Assembly (NCBI RefSeq): GCF_021568795.1
Contig: NZ_JAKGUE010000004.1
Span: 1 to 64,000 of the forward strand
Source: Dethiosulfovibrio faecalis
GTDB taxonomy: Bacteria > Synergistota > Synergistia > Synergistales > Dethiosulfovibrionaceae
DNA: 64,000 nt
Reading direction: 5' to 3'
In this document: positions 28,379-34,558 of the stretch, in pieces
Numbering within the stretch: position 1 is the stretch's first letter
How the letters are laid out: each line of letters begins with the position of its first letter
Position numbers and translations under genes: made by a program
The notes under the pieces: model-generated
Databases searched by the model: none
Told to the model about the DNA's origin: nothing
What the model saw: the letters and a program-made list of their open reading frames with translations, nothing else

Positions 28379-29056
28379 GTGTCAAACGAAATTTTATGGT
28401 TCGCCATGATGCTTCTGAACTTCGGATGCATAATGGCCATCTACAGACTTTGGGGAAAACAGGGCTTGCTGTGCTGGATTCCGGTATCGGTCATATTGGC
28501 CAACATTCAGGTAGTCAAGATGGTATCCCTTTTCGGTATAACATCGACCCTTGGCAACATAGTCTATGCATCGGCCTTTTTGGTCACCGACATCTTGTCG
28601 GAAAACCACGGCAAGGAGGACGCCAAACAGGCGGTCTACATCGGATTCTTCTCCTTGATAGCGATGACGGTAATAATGAACCTGGCCCTGTGGTTCAACC
28701 CTCATCCGGACGATTTCGCCCAAGGGGCACTGGAGACGATATTCAAGCTGATGCCCAGACTCGCTCTGGCCTCGTTTATGGCCTACGGAGCCTCCCAGCT
28801 CCACGACGTATGGGCTTTCCACTGGTGGAAAGAACGCACTGGAGGCCGTCTACTGTGGCTCAGGAACAACCTTTCCACCATGGTCTCCCAGGCGCTGGAC
28901 AGCGTCATATTTACACTGGTGGCATTCTATGGGACGGTCCCGACAGGGGTTCTGGGAGAGATCGTCCTATCCACCTATGTGTTGAAATTCATAGTCGCAG
29001 CCTGCGATACTCCCTTCGTCTACTGGGCCAGAAAAATCGGAGGGGAAAGAAAGTAG
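28379..29056 (+). CDS. queuosine precursor transporter (VUT/YhhQ family)
   Basis: 225-residue membrane protein with six or so helices. It matches the vitamin-uptake-like ECF-independent YhhQ/QPTR family that imports queuosine precursors such as preQ0 or preQ1. The family hallmarks are ASAFLVTDILSENHGKEDAKQAV (near 65-87) and the late TMVSQALDSVIFTLVAFYG and AACDTPFVYW segments. Start GTG at 28379 has GGAGG 8 bases before. It stands 19 bases upstream of the peptide importer and appears to be the first gene of that operon. No preQ1 riboswitch was recognised upstream. Confidence 0.85.
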   Translation: MSNEILWFAMMLLNFGCIMAIYRLWGKQGLLCWIPVSVILANIQVVKMVSLFGITSTLGNIVYASAFLVTDILSENHGKEDAKQAVYIGFFSLIAMTVIMNLALWFNPHPDDFAQGALETIFKLMPRLALASFMAYGASQLHDVWAFHWWKERTGGRLLWLRNNLSTMVSQALDSVIFTLVAFYGTVPTGVLGEIVLSTYVLKFIVAACDTPFVYWARKIGGERK

Positions 29057-29075
29057 AGAAAGGAGGACGCAAGTC

Positions 29076-30710
29076 TTGAAAAAAAGATGCCTCTTAGTCC
29101 TTATAATTGCCGCAACGGTGCTGCCCCAAATCGCCAACGCCTCTGTCGATCCGGATAAAATCCAGGGACCATCGATAGACGAACTCTACATGGTTGTGAT
29201 CAAGGACCCCGACGCCAGGGCTCTGGCCTTGGAGAAAGGTGAAGTCGACCTGGTAGGAGACATAGCCAGCCCTGCGATAATCGACAGGCTCTCAAAAGCC
29301 GACGACAGGATCTCGATGTCCATGGCCAAAAGCTTTCACGCTTTGTCTATGGGGATGAACCTCCGAAGAAATCCATGGAACAGGGTCGAGCTTCGACGGG
29401 CTATAAACACGATCATTCCCAGAGGAAGGTTGGTACGAGAGCTCTTCGGAGGTTTTTCCGAGCCACTGTATTCATACCTACCTCCTGTGTCTCCCTATCA
29501 CGACCCCGAGACATCCCAACCGAAATACGATAGGGAGAAAGCCAGAGAGATGCTTAGGGCATCCGGTTGGAGCTGGAACGACGAAGGGGTGTTAATACCC
29601 CCCGAATCCTCAGAGCCTCTGAAGCCAGTATCCATAATATCCCCCACGGCAAACTCGGCTCCCACCACGGCGGAACTGGCATCCCGCATAGCCGACGAGA
29701 TGACCGCTCTGGGTACACCTACGAAGGCGGAACCGATGGACTTCTCCACCATGCTGGCGAGGCTCGACGCCAGAAACTTCGACTGCTACATCATGGCATG
29801 GAGCTTGACTAGGGATCCCGACGTCCTCTACTCTCTGTATCACTCGTCGATGGACGTCCCAGGAGGATACAATCTCCCCGGCGTCCGATCTTCCATTCTG
29901 GACGAAGCTCTCGAAAGGCTGCGCTACGCACCAGATGAGGAATCAGCTATGGCGGCAGCTCACCAATCCCAGAAACTCCTTTCCGACCTGGTACCTGTCG
30001 TTCCCATATACAGTCGTTCGTCCGTAGGAGCCGTAGGCAAGGGGTGGTCCGGAACTGTCGCTACCGCCGCGACCTCGGTGGACTCCATATGGACCCTTCT
30101 GTCGGCCCACAGAGACGGACACGATCGGTTCAAGATGGCCCTGGAGGACGATCCCAGAGCCCTCAACCCCTTCACATCCTCCAGCGCCACGGCGTGGAAG
30201 GTCCTGGGGTTGATATACGACTCCCTCATCGAGATAGATCCTACGACTCTGGGAGACCGACCGGGACTAGCCGAGTCCTGGAAGGTCGAGACCGTAACGA
30301 TCGACGGCGGCGAGGTGACCAGGATAACCTTCAAATTAAAGGAAGGGCTCCTCTGGCAGGACGGCTCGCCTCTGACCTCCTCCGATCCGGCGGAGACTAT
30401 CCGATATATCGCGGAAAACGAGATTCCACGGTTCTTCGACAACGTATCGGATCTTATGGCGGTGGAGACCCCGGACGAATCGACCTTGACTGTTACGATG
30501 GACTCGATCAGCTACTGGCACTTTCACCATATAGCGGGACTTCCGGTTCTCCCTGCTAAAGTTCTGAGAGAGATAGACGACTGGAAAAGCTGGCAGCCAA
30601 TGGAGGACGGGGGGCTCATCGGCTCGGGGCCCTTCATTCTAAAGGACTACAGACCCGGTGAGTTCGTTAGATTCTCTTCGAACAAACATTACAGGAGGTA
30701 CCGCCGTTGA
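29076..30710 (+). CDS. circularly permuted peptide-type ABC substrate-binding protein
   Basis: 544 residues. A signal peptide (MKKRCLLVLIIAATVLPQIANA) is followed at once by what is normally the C-terminal part of SBP_bac_5 proteins: VIKDPDARALALEKGEVDLV, SMGMNLRRNPWNRVELRRAI, YDREKAREMLRASGW, and DCYIMAWSLTRDPDVLYSLY. From about residue 347 it continues with the normal N-terminal lobe: ALEDDPRALNPFTSSSATAW, PGLAESWKVE, FKLKEGLLWQDGSPLTSSDP and GSGPFILKDYRPGEFVRF, and ends NKHYRR, where ordinary proteins read on into the second lobe. All parts are present once, so the fold should close. There is no lipobox. Start TTG follows AAGGAGG at 8 bases. The next gene overlaps its stop. Confidence 0.9.
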   Translation: MKKRCLLVLIIAATVLPQIANASVDPDKIQGPSIDELYMVVIKDPDARALALEKGEVDLVGDIASPAIIDRLSKADDRISMSMAKSFHALSMGMNLRRNPWNRVELRRAINTIIPRGRLVRELFGGFSEPLYSYLPPVSPYHDPETSQPKYDREKAREMLRASGWSWNDEGVLIPPESSEPLKPVSIISPTANSAPTTAELASRIADEMTALGTPTKAEPMDFSTMLARLDARNFDCYIMAWSLTRDPDVLYSLYHSSMDVPGGYNLPGVRSSILDEALERLRYAPDEESAMAAAHQSQKLLSDLVPVVPIYSRSSVGAVGKGWSGTVATAATSVDSIWTLLSAHRDGHDRFKMALEDDPRALNPFTSSSATAWKVLGLIYDSLIEIDPTTLGDRPGLAESWKVETVTIDGGEVTRITFKLKEGLLWQDGSPLTSSDPAETIRYIAENEIPRFFDNVSDLMAVETPDESTLTVTMDSISYWHFHHIAGLPVLPAKVLREIDDWKSWQPMEDGGLIGSGPFILKDYRPGEFVRFSSNKHYRRYRR

Positions 30711-31696
30711 GTCCATCAGTCGGCGAAGGATATTGGATCAGGAGACTTGCGGGGGCCGCAGCGATAATGCTGGCGGTCCTCGCCCTGAACTTTCTCCTGT
30801 TCAGGATTATGCCGGGCGATCCTGTATCGTCCATCGTCGACCCCGGCTTTTCACCCGAGGCCAAGGATAAATTAAAGGAATTGTACGGTCTGGATCGTCC
30901 TCTGTGGAGTCAATTTCTGACCTACGCCAAAAGAACCCTGACGTTGGACTTCGGGATTTCCTTCATATCGAGAAAGCCGGTGTGGGGGGAAATCGCCTCC
31001 AGGCTTCCCAACACGATAGCGCTCATGGGAATCGCCGTTCTAGGTTCCGCCGCATCTGGAATATGGCTGGGGGTAAAGGCCGCGACGAGAAAAGGCGGAT
31101 GGACGGAGAAACTGGTCCTATGGGGGAGCGCACTGTCCTTTTCCTTTCCCTCCTTTTTCGTACAGATGGTGCTCTTGATGGCCCTGGCCTACGGCCTTCC
31201 TCTATTTCCCCTCAGAGGATCGGTGTCGGTTCCACCGCCGACGGAGCCCCTCCAGATTCTGATCGATTACCTCTGGCACCTCGTCCTTCCCGCCGGTTCC
31301 CTCATCCTCCTGGGATTCGGAGGATGGGCTCTGTACGCCAGGAACCTGATGGTTCGGGTTTTAGAGGAGGACTTCATCCTGATGGCCAAAGCGAGAGGGC
31401 TGTCCGAAAAGAGGATAATATGGCGACACGCCTTCCGATCCATACTGCCGCCAATCCTGACGATACTTCTGATGTCCATGCCATCGCTGGTATCAGGGGC
31501 GGTGATAACCGAAGCTGTGTTCTCCCTTCACGGCATAGGAGCCTTCCTGCTGCAATCGGTGATCGGACACGATTACCCCTCCGCCGGTGCCGCTTTCTAC
31601 CTGCTGTCTTTGATTACGGTGGGTTCCAACCTCTTGGCCGACGCCGCATATGAACTGGTGGATCCCAGGGTAAGGCTGGGGAGGACCATTAGATGA
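30707..31696 (+). CDS. peptide ABC transporter permease, DppB type
   Basis: 329 residues with six membrane helices. It has the DppB/OppB N-terminal motif FRIMPGDPV (near 33) and the LYGLDRPLWSQF extracellular segment. The ATPase-coupling EAA loop is GWALYARNLMVRVLEEDFILMAKARGLSEKRI...HAFR (near 205-245). It pairs with DppC to form the inner-membrane channel. Start TTG at 30707 (AGGAGGT, 6 bases) overlaps the binding-protein stop, and its own stop overlaps DppC by 4 bases. The long second extracytoplasmic loop is normal for the type. Confidence 0.95.
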   Translation: MSPSVGEGYWIRRLAGAAAIMLAVLALNFLLFRIMPGDPVSSIVDPGFSPEAKDKLKELYGLDRPLWSQFLTYAKRTLTLDFGISFISRKPVWGEIASRLPNTIALMGIAVLGSAASGIWLGVKAATRKGGWTEKLVLWGSALSFSFPSFFVQMVLLMALAYGLPLFPLRGSVSVPPPTEPLQILIDYLWHLVLPAGSLILLGFGGWALYARNLMVRVLEEDFILMAKARGLSEKRIIWRHAFRSILPPILTILLMSMPSLVSGAVITEAVFSLHGIGAFLLQSVIGHDYPSAGAAFYLLSLITVGSNLLADAAYELVDPRVRLGRTIR

Positions 31697-32850
31697 ACTT
31701 CAAAATAACTAAAAGATGGAGCTTCTGGGCTCTGGTGGGGTTGTCGATCATGGGATTTTCAGGACCTACAGTGATGAACCTATCGGTGGACTCAGTAGCC
31801 CCACCCTTCTCGAAACCTCTATGGATAGACGGAGATCTTCCGCCCAGCGTGACGTTGGATATCGATGGAAAAAGATCGGGACAGATAGAATGGGCTAGTC
31901 AGCCTCCGGGAGGATTCAGATTATCCGGCACGGTTGTCCTGCCAGATAAGTGTTCCGGAGAAATCATATGGGAAACCCCTGAGAGCCCGTTAAAACTGAT
32001 CGACCTGTCAGGAGGAAAAAACGAGATCGACCTGGACGACCGAGACATGTCGTTCAAGTTGAACCTGGGAATGTCCCCCTTCGACGATCCGATGGAGCAT
32101 CTGTTTCCGAGAGAGGGGGCGTATCGAGCCGAGATCACAGGAGCCCCAGTCTCCTCCGATCTGACCCTCCACCTCCCCGGAGAGAGATGGGGACTTTTAG
32201 GCACAGATCAAAGGGGAAGGGACGTCTTTCTGCTGTTCCTTCTCGGCATCAAGGTGTCCCTCGTGGTAGGACTGGCCACCACGGCCATAGCCTCGATCCT
32301 GGGTTTGACGGTTGGGATGATCAGCGGATACAGGGGAGGCTGGATAGACGGGGCTATCATGAGGGTAGTCGACCTATTCATGTCCATACCGACCCTTCCT
32401 ATACTCATGGTACTCGCTTCCCTGTGGGGAAAGGGCTTGATACAGATGATCGTCATACTCTCTCTGTTTTCATGGATGGGCACGGCCCGTACGGTCAGGG
32501 CCCAGGTTCTGTCGTTGAGGGAATCTCCCTTCGTGGAGGGACTGAGAGCTCTAGGAGCTCCGACGGGCTATATACTGAGAAGACACATACTGCCGGAGAC
32601 GATGCCTATAATGGCCGCAAACGTAGCCCTGGGGGTCCCGGGCGCCATATTGGCCGAGGCGGGGTTATCCTTTCTGGGGCTTTCCGATCCCCGTGTGATC
32701 TCATGGGGAAGGATGCTCCACGAGGCCCACAGCTTCGGAGCCTTTTCCGCCGGAGCATGGTGGCTCCTCCTGCCTCCCGGGCTCGGCATAGTCCTGGTCT
32801 GTCTTATATTTCTGGATTTCGGAAAAATATCCGAGGAGGGGTCGCCATGA
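31693..32850 (+). CDS. peptide ABC transporter permease, DppC type, with enlarged extracytoplasmic insert
   Basis: 385 residues, longer than the usual 280-300. After the first membrane helix (about 9-27) comes a roughly 140-residue polar segment rich in beta-like stretches (PLWIDGDLPPSVTLDIDGK; GGFRLSGTVVLPDK; GKNEIDLDDRDMSFKL). The standard junction LGTDQRGRDVFLLFLLG and five membrane helices follow. The coupling loop is RTVRAQVLSLRESPFVEGLRALGAPTG, and HILPETMP comes after it. The insert is outside the cell in the expected topology and may contact the binding protein. It starts by ATGA overlap with DppB and ends by ATGA overlap with DppD. Confidence 0.92.
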   Translation: MNFKITKRWSFWALVGLSIMGFSGPTVMNLSVDSVAPPFSKPLWIDGDLPPSVTLDIDGKRSGQIEWASQPPGGFRLSGTVVLPDKCSGEIIWETPESPLKLIDLSGGKNEIDLDDRDMSFKLNLGMSPFDDPMEHLFPREGAYRAEITGAPVSSDLTLHLPGERWGLLGTDQRGRDVFLLFLLGIKVSLVVGLATTAIASILGLTVGMISGYRGGWIDGAIMRVVDLFMSIPTLPILMVLASLWGKGLIQMIVILSLFSWMGTARTVRAQVLSLRESPFVEGLRALGAPTGYILRRHILPETMPIMAANVALGVPGAILAEAGLSFLGLSDPRVISWGRMLHEAHSFGAFSAGAWWLLLPPGLGIVLVCLIFLDFGKISEEGSP

Positions 32851-33626
32851 TGGTAAACCTGTCCGACCTCAGCGTCAGATACCCCAATTCGCCTTCGTCC
32901 TCCCCTCCCGCCCTGGACGACGTGTCTCTATCCCTCAGGATGGGGGAAATACTGGGGTTGGTCGGAGAATCGGGAAGCGGGAAAAGCACCCTTCTGATGG
33001 CCATATTGAGGCTTCTGCCGAAAGGGACCTTCGTTAAAGGGACCATCACCTCGGAGGGACAGGACCTGCTCTCCCTGGACGAGGAGGAGATGCGTCTTTT
33101 CAGGTGGGACAGGATCTCTTTGGTTCCTCAGGGAGCGATGAACGGTTTCACACCGGTATTGACTGTGGGGTATCAGATCGCAGAGGTCCTGCTGGAGCAC
33201 TCGGATATACCTATCGGCGAATCCTCGAAGGAAGTCAGAAGGCTGCTATCCGAGGTGGGGCTGCCTGAAGACGCCTACGAGAGATACCCTCACGAGCTGT
33301 CGGGAGGGCAAAAACAGAGGGCGGCCATAGCTACGGCCCTGGCCTGTGCTCCTTATTTCCTCCTGGCGGACGAACCGACCACGGCTCTGGACGTTATAAC
33401 CCAGGCAGAGGTGATATCGCTTCTGAGAAGAGCCGTCAAGAAGAGAAACATGGGCATGGTACTGGTGACCCACGATATAGCCCTGGCATCGTCGATATGT
33501 GACTCGATAGCGGTCTTACGTCACGGGAAACTAGTAGACCACGGAACGGTCGAGGAAATCCTGAGCCATCCCACCGACGAACACACGAAATCCCTTTTGA
33601 GAGCTCAGGAGGAGATGGAACGATGA
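32847..33626 (+). CDS. peptide ABC transporter ATP-binding protein, DppD type
   Basis: 259 residues. Walker A GESGSGKST at 40-48, ABC signature LSGGQKQR near 151, Walker B FLLADEPT near 171 and the switch His in VTHD near 208. It ends soon after the DEHTKSLLRA segment, so the cysteine-containing C-terminal extension seen in many DppD proteins is missing. I set the start at ATG 32847, which overlaps the DppC stop; the frame is open far upstream, but that part is antisense-like shadow of dppC. Energises import together with DppF. Confidence 0.95.
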   Translation: MMVNLSDLSVRYPNSPSSSPPALDDVSLSLRMGEILGLVGESGSGKSTLLMAILRLLPKGTFVKGTITSEGQDLLSLDEEEMRLFRWDRISLVPQGAMNGFTPVLTVGYQIAEVLLEHSDIPIGESSKEVRRLLSEVGLPEDAYERYPHELSGGQKQRAAIATALACAPYFLLADEPTTALDVITQAEVISLLRRAVKKRNMGMVLVTHDIALASSICDSIAVLRHGKLVDHGTVEEILSHPTDEHTKSLLRAQEEMER

Positions 33627-34558
33627 AAGACGTTATATTGGAGACCGACGAACTTGAAGTCGTCTACCGAGGCAGGGATAAATCGGTGAGAGCTCTCAGA
33701 CCACTCTCCATAAAATTGGGACGGGGAGAGTCTCTGGCCGTAGTCGGAGAGTCGGGGTGCGGAAAGACCACCTTGGTGAGGGCCATCCTGGGACTCCAGC
33801 CTCCGTCCTCCGGAGCGATCTCTCTATTCGGAGAAGACATCTCCGAACTGGACAAAAAGGGGACGATAGCCGTCAGGAGAAGGTGCGGGTTCATTCCTCA
33901 AGACGTATACGGAGGACTTCCGCCGGGCCTTTCCGCCCTGGATACAGTCAGAGAGCCCTGGGACCTTCTTCACCCTAGAAACGACAAAGAGGCCGGTAAA
34001 AAACACGCCGTCGAACTGATGGAGCAACTGGGGCTGGACTCGAAAAACCTGGGGAACCGAAAGGTTAAAAAAGGGCTGTCAGGAGGACAGAGACAGAGAA
34101 TAGCGGTAGCTAGAGCCCTAATCAACGACCCGGAACTGCTTCTGGCCGACGAACCTACCAGCATGCAGGACATATCCACGAGAGACAAAGTCATAAGGTT
34201 ACTCCGAGAAAGGGTGGACCGCGGTATGTCTCTGATCTTCGTCACCCACGATCTCCTCCTGGCGCGATCCATAGCCCGGAAGACAGCGATTTTTTTCGGA
34301 GGATCGCTATGCGAGACGGGGAATTCCGACGATATCGTATCCGAGCAGATCCATCCCTACACCAAGGCGCTTTACGGAGCCATGCCGAGTTTGAACGAGA
34401 AGATGGTGCTGCGGACGTCGAAGGACAGGACCCCATCCCCCAGCGGCTGTCCGTTTAGAAAAGGCTGCCCGGAAGCCATGTACGTCTGCGAGAAGACCCC
34501 TCCTATGAAGGACATGGGAAATGACAGGATGGTCGCCTGCTGGAGGACGGGAAACTAG
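33623..34558 (+). CDS. peptide ABC transporter ATP-binding protein, DppF type
   Basis: 311 residues. Walker A GESGCGKTT near 40, signature LSGGQRQR near 153, Walker B LLLADEPTSMQD near 173 and switch VTHDL. The C-terminal oligopeptide-transporter extension is present (HPYTKALYGAMPS, then GCPFRKGCPEAMYVCEKTPP and a final Cys-Trp). These four Cys are typical of the extension and could bind an Fe-S cluster or metal. Last gene of the importer operon; it overlaps DppD by 4 bases and the convergent exporter gene by 4 bases. Confidence 0.95.
   Translation: MKDVILETDELEVVYRGRDKSVRALRPLSIKLGRGESLAVVGESGCGKTTLVRAILGLQPPSSGAISLFGEDISELDKKGTIAVRRRCGFIPQDVYGGLPPGLSALDTVREPWDLLHPRNDKEAGKKHAVELMEQLGLDSKNLGNRKVKKGLSGGQRQRIAVARALINDPELLLADEPTSMQDISTRDKVIRLLRERVDRGMSLIFVTHDLLLARSIARKTAIFFGGSLCETGNSDDIVSEQIHPYTKALYGAMPSLNEKMVLRTSKDRTPSPSGCPFRKGCPEAMYVCEKTPPMKDMGNDRMVACWRTGN

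Follow-up and report, generated by a model that had tools for sequence, protein, structure and literature searches.

Family 5 solute-binding proteins (SBPs) rank among the largest and most intensively studied classes of bacterial importer components, and those of known structure share a single topology as far as was found. SapA illustrates this cluster C fold, with lobe 1 made of residues 35-312 and 532-561, lobe 2 of residues 313-531, and lobe-lobe crossovers at 312/313 and 531/532 (PMC8519434). DppA binds the termini of a dipeptide through Arg383 and Asp436 (PMC12136057, PMC8519434) while SapA lacks both of these residues (PMC8519434). In oligopeptide-binding proteins the usual termini lie close together (PMC10924461), which supplies the structural precondition for a circular permutation. 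TpMglB-2 (Tp0684) of Treponema pallidum is a natural and conserved circularly permuted SBP that is still a functional binder (PMC4990184), and a "domain dislocation" is described as having changed the strand order between Type I and Type II SBPs far back in evolution (Fukami-Kobayashi 1999, as cited in PMC4990184). No permuted cluster C or family 5 SBP was found in the literature searched.

The gene considered here lies in a stretch of 64,000 nucleotides of Dethiosulfovibrio faecalis DNA (the window). A sequence-only reading of the window proposed that the gene encodes a circularly permuted peptide-binding protein of an ABC importer and added that no permuted member of the family was known to have been described. 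For cluster C this agrees with the literature, but TpMglB-2 is already known from cluster B and further permuted family 5 proteins are present in sequence records. The swapped chain order of the protein encoded at 29076-30710 is genuine and conserved, and it adds a new variant to a known family. The protein is very probably a functional, ancient permutant of a cluster C SBP that the Synergistota have retained to serve a five-gene ABC importer as its dedicated binding subunit.

Chain order and predicted fold

The features of the gene and its operon, together with the loci of other permuted proteins, are listed in Table 1. The AlphaFold2 model has a low-confidence helix at residues 2-20 of the putative signal peptide, and a signal-like N terminus is also present in the orthologues. 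Residues 25-322 comprise the middle lobe 1 segment, the whole of lobe 2 and the final lobe 1 segment.

Table 1. Positions in the window of the permuted SBP gene, its parts and the operon genes, followed by the loci of other permuted classes (handle and position in the respective record)
Feature	Position	Strand	Remarks
Shine-Dalgarno sequence AGGAGG of the permuted SBP gene	29061-29066	+	9 nt upstream of TTG; read directly
Permuted cluster C/SBP_bac_5 solute-binding protein gene	29076-30710	+	TTG start, 544 aa
Putative signal peptide, residues 1-22, MKKRCLLVLIIAATVLPQIANA	29076-29141	+	type-I-like, without lipobox; judged by eye
Usual C-terminal part, residues 25-322 (DppA mature ~205-480)	29148-30041	+	Pfam, phmmer, doubled DppA
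Closing segment, residues 323-352, linking the usual C and N termini	30042-30131	+	orthologue alignment; pLDDT 89-94
Usual N-terminal part, residues 353-540 (DppA mature ~1-205)	30132-30695	+	ends in GSGPFILKDYRPGEFVRFSSNKHYR
C-terminal tail RYRR after NKHYR	30696-30707	+	codons overlap AGGAGG of the DppB-like gene
DppB-like permease	30707-31696	+	PF00528, PF19300
DppC-like permease	31693-32850	+	extra N-terminal/periplasmic region
DppC insert, residues 28-165	31774-32187	+	~135 extra residues
DppD-like ATPase	32850-33626	+	PF00005; conserved in operon
DppF-like ATPase with oligo_HPY C terminus	33623-34558	+	PF00005, PF08352; conserved in operon
Class B loci	L050:5887-7536; L051:5932-7530; L055:5986-7662; also L052, L138, L139, L087 (G176)
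Class B' loci	L086, L131, L134, L135 (G307, G395, G393, G394)
Class C locus	L053 ORF 5578-7380		single record, without annotated gene

The family profile PF00496 matches the protein with 197 bits (curated cut-off 32.4) in two stretches, the better of which aligns residues 31-256 with profile positions 145-362, so that the second part of the profile is N-terminal in the protein and its first part comes afterwards; a single collinear match is absent. In a phmmer search of the PDB, residues 32-313 align with positions 209-477 of Escherichia coli DppA and residues ~354-540 with the N-terminal portions of further SBPs from family 5. The canonical segment order, which is usual in SBP_bac_5 members though not a formal criterion of membership, is thus not the order of this protein. 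Pfam returns SBP_bac_5 and a sub-threshold SBP_bac_3 match and nothing else, and the NCBIfam equivalog scores (NikA 93.9, Opp4A 87.3 and DppA 51.5 bits) do not reach their curated cut-offs of 393, 650 and 1005 bits.

Two doubled rulers gave the same picture. In the first, the core of the protein (q25-540) was joined head to tail to a second copy of itself. Ordinary SBPs encoded in the same genome aligned with this ruler as a single piece running from q~340-362 across the wrap to ~317-322 (two of them along a shorter stretch), and the orthologues from the Synergistota, here called class A, ran from q25 or q29 to 539 with no wrap. The second, independent ruler was a doubled E. coli DppA, on which the class A proteins show a wrap of 209 to 205 in mature numbering (L013 and L024; L082 and L089 are at most 3 residues off) and collinear SBPs show none. 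E-values of 1e-18 to 1e-34 exclude chance. By these alignments the cut maps to approximately DppA mature 205/209. Pfam, phmmer and the doubled rulers therefore bear out the swapped order of the halves that had been proposed, and each block is indeed present once and in frame. The proposal that the chain stops at NKHY was right in that the usual N-terminal part closes the chain, but five residues (RRYRR) still follow. A collinear family 5 SBP gene of the same genome (L006, G000:C24:9418-10782) contains an in-frame TAG and is a possible pseudogene.

The AlphaFold2 model of the permuted SBP, built on a 37-member alignment, is bilobed with an ordered linker (pLDDT 92, pTM 0.87), and by this model the protein should fold into the normal two lobes with an extra subdomain. 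The top Foldseek matches in the PDB are cluster C SBPs (AppA, DppA, NikZ and NikA), but each covers just ~290-340 columns, about half a structure, with a TM-score of ~0.45. Foldseek aligns in sequence order only, and half-length matches are therefore as expected for rotated parts; they also indicate that none of the structures listed has the permuted topology. Homology to cluster B (TpMglB-2-like, cluster Bc) was not found, as the structure matches listed are of cluster C. The sequence-only reading had placed the cut at the lobe junction and suggested that it could alter the order of the hinge. Neither point is supported. DppA mature 205-209 falls within lobe 1 and, by an approximate mapping on SapA, the cut would leave both lobe-lobe crossovers intact, which argues that the hinge order is probably unchanged.

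The importer operon, its ligand and the DppC insert

In the class A neighbourhoods examined, the permuted SBP gene is the first gene of a five-gene importer operon whose order (SBP-DppB-DppC-DppD-DppF) is kept as far as the contigs reach. An export signal, two permeases and ATPases are the context expected of an SBP_bac_5 protein, and all are present here, the signal as judged by eye. The TTG start of the DppB-like gene overlaps the stop of the permuted SBP gene (TTGA), and its AGGAGG at 30693-30698 lies inside the codons of the RRYRR tail. A Peptidase C69 gene (26450-28180, minus strand) and a PF02592 vitamin-uptake-like gene (28379-29056, plus strand) adjoin the operon only in Dethiosulfovibrio and are not conserved at other class A loci.

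The make-up of the operon and the best family models, which are DppA-, NikA- and Opp-like, would suit a dipeptide or oligopeptide transporter strictly of the DppA or OppA type. However, the class A members compared have no Arg at the position of R383 and have Ser, Gly or Thr at that of D436, and the family models score far under their curated cut-offs. Besides the operon genes and out-of-frame shadow ORFs, no gene that might give a clue to the ligand occurs in more than 4 of the 23 class A neighbourhoods. A strict peptide transporter is therefore possible but rather doubtful. With both salt-bridge residues missing, DppA-type specificity was rejected and the term "peptide-binding" of the sequence-only reading is unproven; the class A ligand is probably no standard dipeptide. 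Neither residue is present in SapA, and by analogy the ligand may be a small peptide of a non-standard kind or an amino-acid-like compound. The OppA-type permuted proteins of classes B' and C (see below) retain the Asp.

The operon had been described as an otherwise normal dppBCDF operon. Its five genes are intact, but it is not fully ordinary because the DppC-like permease carries the insert. In this permease PF00528 starts at residue 204 and the NCBIfam DppC/NikC models at about residue 152-168; the insert itself has no Pfam match and, folded alone without an alignment, gave a pLDDT of 35. Among the 382 genomes searched it is present in 105, all of them Synergistota, with no match outside the phylum. 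Insert and permuted SBP occur together in 104 genomes, the permuted SBP alone in 4 and the insert alone in 1 (Fisher p = 7e-47, a statistic that ignores phylogeny). Given the linkage of the two genes and the relatedness of the genomes, the association reflects co-inheritance and is no proof of contact. It would also be compatible with an adaptive permutation, in which the moved termini and the C-terminal extra subdomain alter docking and evolved jointly with the additional periplasmic domain of DppC; a modified DppC could mean altered docking. This is unlikely, as the link concerns one operon in one phylum, for which shared inheritance suffices, and as the DppC homologues encoded next to the permuted SBPs in classes B, B' and C have no clearly homologous insert. 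The shift of the termini was probably near-neutral and has since been frozen, and it probably brought no new transport mechanism.

Conservation and probable origin of the permutation

Same-order orthologues (E <= 1e-35) are found in 108 of 188 Synergistota genomes, representing 46 of 63 genera, with 40-98% identity. Class A proteins are nearly always present in one copy per genome and align along the entire permuted length, as does L013 of a Synergistales MAG (contig JAHDOX010000132.1), though a few are split across contigs or frames. The 37 aligned members have a mean column identity of 61% and the same cut: behind the signal-like N terminus comes (G)P-I-x-x-LY or a close variant of it, and all stop a few residues past the motif N-x-x-[FY]. 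The linker between the former termini (approximately TADNxWSLLxMEPxxGxMRPL) is also conserved among them. A junction-spanning query against ~200 genomes outside the Synergistota returned half-junction matches only, except for class B' in G307, and the sole match of an exact-pattern scan of contigs was a Synergistales MAG. The phylum-wide conservation, the fixed cut and linker, the confident predicted fold and the intact operon all support the proposal of a working permutation rather than a wreck. Two class A members have broken frames: in L088 (G011:C1:1107433-1107436) a one-base difference from the 99% identical G010 shifts the frame, and L020 (G008) contains an in-frame TAG. These changes are due to sequencing error or recent decay.

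The most likely origin is a tandem duplication of an SBP gene, by which the neighbouring usual termini would have been fused. Translation would then have come to start, with a signal peptide, and to stop at new points at DppA mature ~205/209, where the final strand of the usual N-terminal part gives way to the lobe 1 strand that follows it. The mature chain would run from the middle lobe 1 segment through lobe 2 and the last lobe 1 segment to the linker, and from there into the first lobe 1 segment and the extra subdomain. Its two lobes would close on the ligand in the periplasm in the flytrap manner of other SBPs, and the ligand would be handed to the DppB/DppC-type channel. Tandem arrays are the intermediates expected of such a duplication, and one that lends support to this origin exists on a Phyllobacterium plasmid, where four peptide SBP genes directly follow one another (L147:279-6647); within the Synergistota no intermediate was seen.

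A fusion of two once-separate half genes in reverse order would yield a protein that works alike, and it is compatible with the sequence although nothing specific speaks for it. Such a fusion is highly improbable, as separate half genes were not seen, the short conserved linker joins the usual termini, and tandem SBP arrays exist. That the gene is an assembly rearrangement, a chimera or a decaying gene that merely looks permuted has next to no likelihood: the isolated frameshift and in-frame TAG would fit decay, but the order shared by close relatives in 108 independently assembled genomes, the cut common to the aligned members and their mean column identity of 61%, the intact ribosome-binding sites and the stop/start coupling refute it.

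Other permuted SBPs and comparison with known systems

Searches for class A relatives brought up further permuted family 5 SBPs, a sample that is accordingly picked by similarity to class A. Class B, from haloarchaea and Alphaproteobacteria (Halalkalicoccus, Nitratireductor, Microvirga, Ketogulonicigenium, Neorhizobium and Maritalea), has its cut within lobe 2, at DppA mature ~343/357 by doubled-ruler alignment. The Synergistota genome G176 has a class B gene (L087) as a second gene besides class A, and it was the only one of the genomes searched in which the class B junction query found this class; L140 of Halostagnicola resembles class B but is divergent. Class B' is an OppA-type lipoprotein that is conserved in one small phylum (6 of 7 genomes); its wrap, at 353/354, takes in the full 517 residues of mature OppA (E down to 1e-105). 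Class C, an OppA-type lipoprotein encoded on a plasmid of Subdoligranulum variabile, is cut at OppA mature ~129/134 (E 3e-83).

In a tree for which the sequences were first rotated into canonical order, classes B' and C are placed next to E. coli OppA and apart from A and B, and a single clade or common origin of all permuted family 5 SBPs was rejected (AU p = 8.7e-7). Judged from these alignments and the tree, family 5 turns out to have been permuted several separate times. A more far-reaching combination, in which recurrent permutation of cluster C (at least 3 events, 4 cut points) is coupled with a Synergistota permease domain that recognises the re-ordered lobe 1 and gives a distinct docking, has a low probability.

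A permutant found throughout a phylum, together with other permuted lineages that have other cuts, means that the chain order of the cluster C fold is not fixed. Permuted SBPs are natural experiments in folding, hinge coupling and SBP-permease docking, and they provide natural split or permutation sites for the design of biosensors. Profile-based annotation reports them as ordinary binding proteins, and the permutation can therefore go unnoticed.

Classes B, B' and C resemble class A in that the usual termini are fused, the new termini lie elsewhere and an ABC importer operon is adjacent where checked, and they differ from it in the position of the cut (~205/209 in class A). E. coli DppA, Bacillus subtilis AppA, Campylobacter jejuni NikZ and CcNikZ-II are whole-length homologues of the permuted SBP from the same operon type, and each half of the permuted SBP is predicted to have a cluster C fold. 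It differs from these cluster C proteins in the reversed order of its parts, in the absence of the DppA ligand residues and in having a DppC partner with an insert. Class A and TpMglB-2 are alike in being ABC solute-binding proteins with a natural circular permutation that has been conserved. However, TpMglB-2 is a cluster B sugar-binding protein whose permutation adds a fourth lobe crossover (PMC4990184), whereas the class A cut, being inside lobe 1, adds none. Domain dislocation, as the citing paper presents it, is a change of core topology between classes of the superfamily, whereas in class A whole blocks are rotated inside one family.
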